DNA from: Arcobacter porcinus
GTDB taxonomy: Bacteria; Campylobacterota; Campylobacteria; Campylobacterales; Arcobacteraceae
NCBI RefSeq assembly: GCF_004299785.2
Contig: NZ_CP036246.2
Span: forward strand, 372,001 to 436,000
DNA: 64,000 bases
Reading direction: 5' to 3'
Shown here: positions 1-62,654 of the stretch, one piece after another
How positions within the stretch are numbered: the first letter of the stretch is position 1
Layout: each line of letters begins with the position of its first letter
Notes under the pieces: model-generated
Database searches by the model: none
What the model saw: only the letters and a program-made list of their open reading frames with translations
What the model was told of the DNA's origin: nothing
Program-made: the position numbers and the translations under genes

Positions 1-468
1 CATAACAAATGAAGATGAAACAGTATTTATACCAGGTGCTGTTTTGATTACTTGAATAGCAGCTTTTAATACATCAGCTGTTGTTGAGTTTGAACCAGCA
101 ACTAAACCATCTGCATCTCCAAGTCTTACCATCATACAACCAAAAAATCTAGATTCATTTAGCATTAAATTAGTAGCATCTTCTCTCGAAAGATTTTTAC
201 TTTTTCTAAGCTCAACTAACTCATCAATATATGACTCTATTTTGTCAAAATTTTTTGGATTTACAATTTTTGCACCTGAAATATCTACACCATATTTTTT
301 TGCATCCGCATTTATATTGTTTTCATCTCCAATTAAAACAATATTTGCAGTTTTTGCTTCTAAAACTTGAGCAGTAGCTCTTAAAACTCTTTCGTCTTCT
401 GTTTCAGGAAGAACAATAGTTCTTAATTTTTGTTTTGCCTTAGTTTTTATTTGATCTATTAATCCCAT
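1..468 (-). CDS. pta: Phosphate acetyltransferase, N-terminal part (cut by window edge)
   Basis: This gene runs off the left edge; 156 N-terminal residues are visible. It begins MGLIDQIKTKAK, then a typical phosphotransacetylase stretch (IVLPETEDERVLRAT), and ends in the window at GINTVSSFVM, matching the PTA family core. Pta interconverts acetyl-CoA and acetyl phosphate in the cytoplasm. An AAGGAT ribosome binding site lies at about 473-478, just upstream of the ATG. It follows ackA on the same strand, the usual acetate switch pair, so the two probably act in sequence. The C-terminal part is not visible, so total length is unknown. Confidence 0.93.
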   Translation of the reverse strand, partial: MGLIDQIKTKAKQKLRTIVLPETEDERVLRATAQVLEAKTANIVLIGDENNINADAKKYGVDISGAKIVNPKNFDKIESYIDELVELRKSKNLSREDATNLMLNESRFFGCMMVRLGDADGLVAGSNSTTADVLKAAIQVIKTAPGINTVSSSFVM

Positions 469-59867: not shown

Positions 59868-60134
59868 ATGAATGAAGAGAAGAAAAAAGCTTTACAAACA
59901 TTAAAAATTGCAAAAGGACAAATTGAAGCTGTTATTAAAATGATTGAAGATGGAAGATATTGTATTGATATTTCAAATCAAATCTTAGCAGTTTCATCTT
60001 TGGTTAAAAAATCAAATATGCTGATTTTAAAGCAACATATGAATAGTTGTGTTTTAGAAGCTGTAAATAGTGGAAATAGTGCTGAGAAAATTGATGAAAT
60101 TACAAAAATATTATCAAAAATAGTTGATAAATAA
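59868..60134 (+). CDS. csoR: Copper-sensing transcriptional repressor CsoR
   Basis: The 88-residue DUF156 protein has the copper ligand set C32, H57 and C61 (RYCID, KQHMNSC), spaced as in CsoR. As copper(I) binds, it releases DNA and copA is expressed. TTAGGAGC precedes the ATG. The dyad 22 bases upstream would give autoregulation. copA starts 10 bases after its stop. Confidence 0.93.
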   Translation: MNEEKKKALQTLKIAKGQIEAVIKMIEDGRYCIDISNQILAVSSLVKKSNMLILKQHMNSCVLEAVNSGNSAEKIDEITKILSKIVDK

Positions 60135-60143
60135 AGGCTAAAA

Positions 60144-62654
60144 ATGAAATCACAAAAATTTGATATTAAAGGTATGACTTGTAGTGCTTGTTCAAATGCT
60201 GTTGATAGAAGTATCAAAAAGCTTGAAGGAATAAGTGAAGTAAATGTAAATTTACTTAGTAATAGTATGATTGTTAAATATGATGATAAATTTTTAAATG
60301 ATGAGAAAATTATAAAAACAGTAGAAGATGCTGGATATGAAGCTGTATTAACTCAAGATAAAAACATAAAAAAAGAGAAAAAAGAAAACATTGCACAAAA
60401 TGAGATAAATGAGCTAAAAAATAGGCTGATTGTATCATTGATCTTTGCAATACCACTGTTTTATATAGCTATGGGACATATGTTAAATTGGTCACTTCCA
60501 TCATATTTTCTTGGAGAAAAAAATGCAATAACATTTGCCTTTACTCAGTTTTTATTGGCTATTCCAATTGTATTTATAAATATAAAGTATTATAAAGTAG
60601 GGTTTAAAACTCTTTTTAAAGCTTCACCAAATATGGACTCTTTAATAGCAATTGGTACAGGAGCTGCTATGCTTTATGGAGTTTTTGCAATATATAAAAT
60701 TGGCTTTGCTTTAGGAATTAATGATTTAAATATGCTTCAACAATACTCAATGAATCTATATTTTGAAAGTGCAGCTATTGTTTTGACTTTAATAACTTTT
60801 GGAAAATATCTTGAAGCTAGAGCAAAAGGAAAAACTAGCGAAGCTATAAATAAACTTATGGATTTAGCTCCAAAAAAAGCTTTAGTATTAAGAGATAATA
60901 AAGAAGTTGAAATATCAATTGATGAACTAAAACTAAAAGATATTGTAATTGTAAAACCAGGAGCTAGTATTCCTGCTGATGGTGTTATAGTTTTTGGAAA
61001 CACTGCAATAGATGAATCAATGCTTACAGGAGAGAGTTTACCTGTTTCAAAAAAAATTGGAGATAAAGTTATTGGAGCTAGTATAAATAAATATGGTTCT
61101 ATAAAATTTGAAGTTACAAAACTTGGTTCTGATACGGTTTTATCACAGATTATAAAATTGGTTGAAGAAGCTAGTTCATCAAAAGCACCAATTTCAAAAC
61201 TTGCAGATAAGATAAGTTCTATTTTTGTACCAACTGTTATTTTGATTTCAATAATAGCAACAATTACTTGGTTATTTCTTGGATATGACTTTGAATTTGC
61301 TTTAGGAATAGGAATTGCAATTTTGGTTATATCTTGCCCTTGTGCCTTAGGTTTAGCAACTCCAACAGCTATTATGGTTGGAACTGGAAGAGGTGCACAA
61401 AATGGTATTTTAATAAAAAATGCTGAAGCATTAGAACTTGCAGAAAAGATTGATACTATTGTTTTGGATAAAACAGGAACTATAACAGAAGGAAAACCAA
61501 AAGTCACAGATATTATAGTAAATAGTGAAATAAGTGAAAACAGACTTCTTCAAATAGCTTATTCTCTTGAAAAGAATTCAGAGCATCCTTTAGCTGATGC
61601 AGTTGTAAAAAAAGCAGAAGATGAGAAATTAGATTTATTGGAAGTAAAAGAGTTTAAAGCATTAAATGGTTTAGGAATTAAAGCAAAAATAGAAGATGAA
61701 ACTATATTTATAGGGAATAAAAAGCTACTTGAAAACAATAATATATCATTAGATGAATTTTTTCCAATAAGTGAAAAACTTGCAAGTAGCGGAAAAACTC
61801 CAATATTTATCTCTAATAGTAAAAAAATATTAGGACTTATTGCTATTGCTGATGTTGTAAAAGCTACAAGTAAACAAGCAATTGAAAAGTTTTATAAAAT
61901 GAATTTAGAAGTAATTATGCTAACAGGTGATAATCAAAAAACAGCCCAAGCAATAGCAAATGAGCTAAATATTAGAAATTTTATAGCTGAAGTTTTACCA
62001 GAAGATAAAGACAAAGTTATTAAAAAGCTTCAAGAAGAGGGTAAAAAAGTTGCAATGGTTGGGGATGGAATAAATGATGCTCCAGCTTTAGCAAGATCAG
62101 ATGTAGCAATAGCAATTGGAGCTGGAACTGATATAGCAATAGAGTCTGCAAATATTGTATTAGTAAGAAATGATTTACTAGATGTTGTAAGAGCAATAGA
62201 ACTTAGCACTGCAACACTTAAAAATATAAAGCAAAACCTATTTTGGGCATTTATTTATAATATTATTGGTATTCCATTAGCAGCAGGAGTATTTTACTCT
62301 TTCTTAGGATGGAAATTAAATCCAATGTTTGCAGGTGCTGCCATGAGTTTAAGTAGTGTTTCTGTGGTTTTAAATGCCTTAAGATTAAGGTTTTTTAAAT
62401 CAACAATAGATAAAAATATGATAAATAATCAAAATATAAAAGGAGTTAATATGACAAAAGTTTTAAAAGTAGATGGAATGAGTTGTGGACATTGTAGTGG
62501 AAGAGTTGAAAAGGCTTTAAATAGTTTAGATGAAGTTAAAAGTGTAGAAATTGATTTATCAACAAAAGAAGTTGTAATTAATTGTAATGAAGAGATTTCT
62601 GAAAAAATATTAGAAGATAAGATTAAAGAAGCTGGATACGAAGTAATAAAATAA
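60144..62654 (+). CDS. copA: Copper P1B-type ATPase CopA with C-terminal CopZ-like domain
   Basis: The 836-residue ATPase has an N-terminal HMA domain (C13, C16 in GMTCSAC), CPCAL at C398-C400, DKTGT with D442, MLTGDN and MVGDGINDAPAL. After the usual last helix (LRLRFF) it has a linker of about 20 residues and a second complete HMA domain, GMSCGHCSGRVEK. It exports copper(I) from the cytoplasm. The tail looks like a CopZ gene fused in frame, and carries its own ribosome binding site and ATG. Confidence 0.95.
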   Translation: MKSQKFDIKGMTCSACSNAVDRSIKKLEGISEVNVNLLSNSMIVKYDDKFLNDEKIIKTVEDAGYEAVLTQDKNIKKEKKENIAQNEINELKNRLIVSLIFAIPLFYIAMGHMLNWSLPSYFLGEKNAITFAFTQFLLAIPIVFINIKYYKVGFKTLFKASPNMDSLIAIGTGAAMLYGVFAIYKIGFALGINDLNMLQQYSMNLYFESAAIVLTLITFGKYLEARAKGKTSEAINKLMDLAPKKALVLRDNKEVEISIDELKLKDIVIVKPGASIPADGVIVFGNTAIDESMLTGESLPVSKKIGDKVIGASINKYGSIKFEVTKLGSDTVLSQIIKLVEEASSSKAPISKLADKISSIFVPTVILISIIATITWLFLGYDFEFALGIGIAILVISCPCALGLATPTAIMVGTGRGAQNGILIKNAEALELAEKIDTIVLDKTGTITEGKPKVTDIIVNSEISENRLLQIAYSLEKNSEHPLADAVVKKAEDEKLDLLEVKEFKALNGLGIKAKIEDETIFIGNKKLLENNNISLDEFFPISEKLASSGKTPIFISNSKKILGLIAIADVVKATSKQAIEKFYKMNLEVIMLTGDNQKTAQAIANELNIRNFIAEVLPEDKDKVIKKLQEEGKKVAMVGDGINDAPALARSDVAIAIGAGTDIAIESANIVLVRNDLLDVVRAIELSTATLKNIKQNLFWAFIYNIIGIPLAAGVFYSFLGWKLNPMFAGAAMSLSSVSVVLNALRLRFFKSTIDKNMINNQNIKGVNMTKVLKVDGMSCGHCSGRVEKALNSLDEVKSVEIDLSTKEVVINCNEEISEKILEDKIKEAGYEVIK
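62441..62654 (+). CDS. copZ: CopZ-like copper chaperone, possible internal start within copA
   Basis: Inside the copA frame AGGAG (62441-62445) lies 5 bases before an ATG at 62451, the start of a full 67-residue HMA domain protein MTKVLKVDGMSCGHC. That is the size of a normal CopZ. Both fused and free forms could be made from one mRNA. The preceding linker resembles an intergenic spacer. The start site here includes the ribosome binding site; the coding part is 62451-62654. Confidence 0.6.

Follow-up and report, generated by a model that had tools for sequence, protein, structure and literature searches.

That a single gene, by frameshifting, gives rise to both a copper pump and a copper chaperone came as a surprise in E. 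coli copA, and the frameshifting that produces CopA(Z) was reportedly studied by Meydan and by Drees in 2017. Two papers (PMC9548414, PMC5009743) describe the E. coli gene as yielding the pump together with a small soluble HMA chaperone, CopA(Z), through programmed -1 frameshifting. The locus described here resembles that system in that one copA gene would supply a pump and a chaperone. The two differ in how this is done: in E. coli the chaperone is the N-terminal HMA domain, made by -1 frameshifting, whereas here it would be the C-terminal HMA domain, predicted to be made by in-frame internal initiation. In-frame internal starts are described for infB (IF2), clpA and speA in a further source (PMC13245402). 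Like copA as read here, these genes give two proteins in one frame through an internal start, but their short form is a truncated variant, whereas the second product of copA would be a complete protein family member with a different role.

Split operons (e.g., loci L056-L068 and L147) share with the present gene the CopZ-like domain, its position and the strength of its ribosome-binding site (RBS; 47/47), but differ in that a stop codon ends copA first, without a fusion protein. CopA of Archaeoglobus fulgidus has a C-terminal metal-binding domain and is thus similar in carrying an HMA domain at the CopA C-terminus. In a literature search that left most subscription journals outside its reach, we recognized no report of a copZ start inside copA. 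The predicted arrangement would share its outcome with E. coli copA while differing in mechanism.

Organization of the copA locus

The gene, which we call copA(Z), lies at 60144-62654 on the plus strand of a 64,000-nucleotide stretch of the Arcobacter porcinus genome, referred to below as the window. One open frame encodes an 836-aa copper P1B ATPase with an HMA domain at both ends (matches to TIGR01511, PF00122 and PF00702, and two to PF00403), arranged as N-terminal HMA, P1B ATPase core, linker and CopZ-like HMA tail. The single frame and the PF00403 match at either end bear out the in-frame CopA-CopZ fusion of the original prediction, and the sequence anatomy of the locus is well established. 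CopA scores 612 bits against TIGR01511, for which the curated cut-off is 397, placing it among the Cu(I) P1B-1 ATPases, and its translation shows the CPC and DKTGT motifs (SCPCALG and DKTGT). The N-terminal HMA domain (GMTCSAC; 60159-60341, plus strand; PF00403 at residues 6-66) stands in cis with the pump.

A gene for a csoR-type metal-sensing repressor (59868-60134, plus strand; Pfam Trns_repr_metal, 1.8e-25; NCBIfam RicR match below its cut-off) ends 9 nt upstream of copA, and likely exerts copper-responsive control over the copA operon. The RBS of copA's own start at 60144 is weak, at -3.3 kcal/mol. Taken together, this weak RBS and the position of the start 9 nt past the csoR stop (60135-60144) suggest that copA translation is coupled to csoR.

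The conserved part of CopA closes with the residues NALRL, at 62387. The linker that follows, up to the internal start (62388-62450, plus strand), resembles a former intergenic spacer when compared with split relatives. It runs into the sequence AAAGGAG-TTAAT-ATG (62439-62453), in which a putative internal Shine-Dalgarno (SD) sequence, AAAGGAG (62439-62445, plus strand), forms a conserved block 5 nt before the ATG at 62451. Sites of this kind were scored as the pairing energy of the 16 nt preceding a start with the 16S tail, whose 3' end, GGATCACCTCCTT, has four occurrences in this genome. The duplex energy at ATG 62451 is -8.4 kcal/mol. None of the 314 other in-frame internal ATGs in the 38 open reading frames of the window is as strong, and just 2 of the 38 gene starts are, so that the internal SD surpasses the remaining 36. 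The AGGAG and well-placed ATG that had first drawn attention to this site exceed what chance would give.

The ATG opens a nested in-frame copZ (62451-62654, plus strand), predicted to encode a 67-aa cytoplasmic copper chaperone (MTKVLKVDGMSCGHC...). Taken alone, the tail matches PF00403 at 1e-16 and carries GMSCGHC, a motif of the GMxCxxC type, in line with the HMA fold profile and motif of CopZ/Atx1-like chaperones; the CopZ entry 6ff2 of the PDB matches it at 1e-11. The best NCBIfam model for the 67 residues is chaper_CopZ_Bs (2.7e-17), yet the score lies below the cut-off of each NCBIfam CopZ model considered (62.7/91 for chaper_CopZ_Bs, 55.9/85 for CopZ_AFE_1862 and 52.2/62 for TIGR00003), and we therefore call the tail CopZ-like.

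Five HMA matches were found in this genome: the two ends of CopA, a further pair of ATPases and a single small protein. The small protein is a 96-aa frame beside a MerT-like gene and has a signal-peptide-like N-terminus, which leaves the CopA tail as the only cytoplasmic CopZ candidate in this genome. The pair lies at L005:1480-2099, outside the window; judging by the sequences, we take this HMA protein to be MerP-like and its neighbour to be a MerT-like membrane protein. Across 36 chosen genomes, standalone small HMA proteins present a mixed picture, with several fused genomes holding some elsewhere. Within the genus, neither G027 nor G013 yielded a small HMA protein at E <= 1e-6, but several Clostridia do have one. 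One of these, at L248:198-575, is a 126-aa frame whose N-terminus resembles a membrane anchor; it has a cysteine-rich stretch as well as a CopZ-like HMA domain. At G847:C1:2415728-2415907, an HMA match within a 139-aa frame ends ~70 nt ahead of the start of a fused copA match, and may represent either an additional chaperone or a regulator that is fused.

Conservation of the internal start among fused relatives

The comparison began with 244 loci, of which 238 had a CopA frame; 23 at bits <= 650 were set aside, leaving 215. These comprised 146 fused and 69 non-fused loci, and removal of 2 duplicate proteins left 144 distinct fused proteins. One hundred of the relatives' regions were hand-picked, mostly as stop-free rows, and the fused share of this set is accordingly not the prevalence of the fusion.

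An ATG lies 3-14 codons ahead of the tail GMxCxxC motif in 142 of the 144 fused proteins, most commonly at position -8, and an ATG together with an SD score <= -5 precedes the tail in 141 of them (mean SD -9.83). The own copA starts of these genes average -9.50 (n=124), and ATGs in the core reach <= -5 in 568 of 3430 cases, with a mean of -2.37. With a conserved in-frame start behind a properly spaced SD in 141/144, copA shows the sequence hallmark of genes with in-frame internal initiation. The RBS and ATG look functional, consistent with the proposal in the original prediction that internal initiation could be the source of CopZ.

This conservation holds against several controls. After clustering at 80% identity, the internal ATG and SD are present in 80 of 82 representatives. 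Choosing the best-scoring ATG was considered as a source of bias, and with a fixed ATG in its place the site is still found in 133/136. The upstream nucleotide profile shows a single sharp peak, AAGGAGG at -15 to -9, on an A-rich background, and the peak includes third codon positions. The residues encoded at the SD vary among relatives (e.g., KG, KD, KE, EE, EV, RE), indicating that nucleotides rather than amino acids are kept. Glutamate codons at the SD are used at a GAG:GAA ratio of 133:97, compared with 1843:4421 in the core. Synonymous recoding of the site gives a background mean of -5.04, short of the observed -9.83, and we rejected an SD due to amino acids alone on this basis; shuffling of the linker gives a mean of -2.08. 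In 139 of 142 fused genes the actual SD outscores the average synonymous recoding, and the same test reaches p<0.05 gene by gene in only 38/142, the site being short and its codons purine-rich. A methionine demanded by the HMA fold was likewise rejected, with an ATG at -9 to -6 in 136/144 tails versus 2/39 internal (non-first) N-terminal HMA domains from tandem arrangements. In 125/141 the internal site also shows less pairing than a core ATG taken at random. Fused linkers are hypervariable, with a median length of 72 nt and a range of 24-234 nt (141 of 142 linkers, one outside the length bounds having been dropped).

Three of the 144 fusions (L047, L208 and L219) are without the ATG and SD site, and the tail remains in frame even in these. 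In L219 (genome G580) the internal SD is lost and a separate 84-aa copZ lies directly downstream (139-393, minus strand), in effect a naturally evolved substitute for the nested start. That L219 keeps its tail despite having its own copZ hints that the tail also plays a role in cis. No adjacent copZ was found beside copA in L047 or L208. As for the other exception genomes, G468 holds an apparently membrane-anchored 126-aa HMA protein elsewhere, and G048 just a weak 67-aa frame.

Age and spread of the fusion

Comparison of copA 3' ends across the genus, as had been proposed, showed that 9 of its 31 genomes have the fusion at full length and stop-free, with Arcobacter vandammei (L036) among the fused congeners. 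Nine other congeners (L015-L023) carry a different CopA, at 41-43% identity, without a tail or an adjacent copZ. Among the 199 genomes of the window's order, six match at E <= 1e-205, four belonging to the genus and two to another family and lacking the tail. A Clostridial fused match (L037) shows 57% identity. Fused matches are many in the order of a Lachnospiraceae MAG (G034), and the fusion also occurs in the orders of a Treponema MAG (G036) and an Oscillospiraceae MAG (G035). With so patchy a distribution, and with relatives in the Clostridia, it seems probable that the fusion entered Aliarcobacter by horizontal transfer, the Clostridia being the presumed source. The recurrence of the same fusion in 9/31 congeneric genomes and in Clostridia also disposes of a recent indel or a sequencing error as its origin.

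Fused copA and split copA-stop-copZ both occur among the relatives. In split relatives, CopA ends a few residues past NALRL, and a median of 50 nt separates its stop from copZ, whose SD score is <= -5 in 47/47 (mean -9.56). From this short spacer and equal RBS we infer that the linker is a former spacer in which the copA stop was lost and the copZ start retained, in keeping with its earlier description as resembling an intergenic spacer. Relatives with a separate copZ behind a stop, which had been named as a possible sign of a sequencing error here, do exist (the 47 split cases), but the recurrence of the fusion in congeners speaks against such an error here.

A FastTree phylogeny of 223 rows, drawn with a looser bound (bits >= 480), contains 145 fused rows, 47 split rows with copZ within ~500 nt and 31 with neither; one fused row (L235) lies outside the 144. 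The fused and non-fused states require 8 changes on this tree, with 8 forced by starred branches. The ATG and SD are kept in the largest all-fused clades, in 45/45, 32/34, 11/11 and 9/9 members, the last being Aliarcobacter, and the total branch length of the 45-member clade is 7.0. Judged from these sequences, the fusion is old.

A proposed dual-product gene and its alternatives

We consider it probable (about 0.86) that copA is a dual-product gene, yielding a pump and a CopZ-type chaperone by conserved internal initiation. Ribosomes starting at 60144 would produce the pump of 836 aa, which carries a metal-binding domain at each end, and ribosomes binding the internal SD and starting at ATG 62451 would make a separate 67-aa CopZ-type chaperone, both from one mRNA and in one frame. 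The conserved site points to initiation at the internal ATG in cells. The product would then be a soluble chaperone feeding CopA, its free form being predicted from the conserved start. Such a gene would descend from a copA-copZ operon that lost its copA stop but, under selection, kept the copZ start, and would have reached Aliarcobacter by horizontal transfer, probably from Clostridia.

The internal ATG and SD could instead be mere relics. The in-frame tails of L047, L208 and L219, where the start or SD is lost, would fit such a reading, as would linkers that stay open when shuffled linkers are open in 15%, a comparison biased by rows mostly chosen as open. Relics are expected to decay, yet the site persists in every member of the 45-row clade over a branch length of 7.0, linkers vary almost tenfold in length while the ATG and SD stay, and third codon positions are conserved; we regard relics as improbable. 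Decay would not be expected if there had been many young, independent fusions, in which the copA stop was lost recently and the copZ start had no time to erode. The interleaving of fused and split forms on the tree and the equal RBS of split copZ (47/47) agree with this, but the large all-fused clades (45, 34, 11 and 9 rows) and their long total branch lengths make it very unlikely, and internal initiation would be expected even if it were true. There are already signs that the fusions predate the saturation of synonymous sites.

Conservation of a strong SD at a domain boundary might also reflect a programmed elongation pause, during which the membrane part folds before the tail is made, with no start involved. 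A pause needs no ATG at SD-proper spacing, yet one is present in 142/144, and low structure around the ATG is a feature of initiation, so we give this reading hardly any credence. The original prediction further proposed programmed slippage at a T6A3 run (62391-62399, plus strand), giving CopA without its tail. The run does sit at the old CopA end and shifts in both directions there meet stops quickly, but neither the run nor the quick stops are unusual: the window holds 23 copies of T6A3 on both strands, and a stop follows within six codons of both a -1 and a +1 shift at 251 of the 771 codon positions of copA. Moreover, the run is kept in only 4/9 congeners, and its phase, TTT TTT AAA, is by inspection not a canonical in-phase X XXY YYZ heptamer. 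The conserved slippery heptamer expected of programmed -1 frameshifting of the E. coli copA type was not found in these congeners. We reject programmed slippage as extremely unlikely and judge the run incidental.

Returning to the dual-product gene, we think it quite likely that the nesting of copZ in frame within copA is stable and under selection in several phyla (Clostridia, the order of Treponema, and Aliarcobacter) and evolved as a second independent route to a pump plus a chaperone, in which, in this genome, the strong internal RBS (-8.4) next to the weak copA RBS (-3.3) would set the chaperone-over-pump ratio. Internal initiation would then answer this need in a second way, across many sampled genomes, and many genomes may carry an overlooked chaperone inside an annotated ATPase. 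The arrangement is open to testing in gut bacteria that grow in culture, and it offers a natural set for asking why fused and split forms both persist. More broadly, it suggests that two genes may fuse without loss of the separate product.
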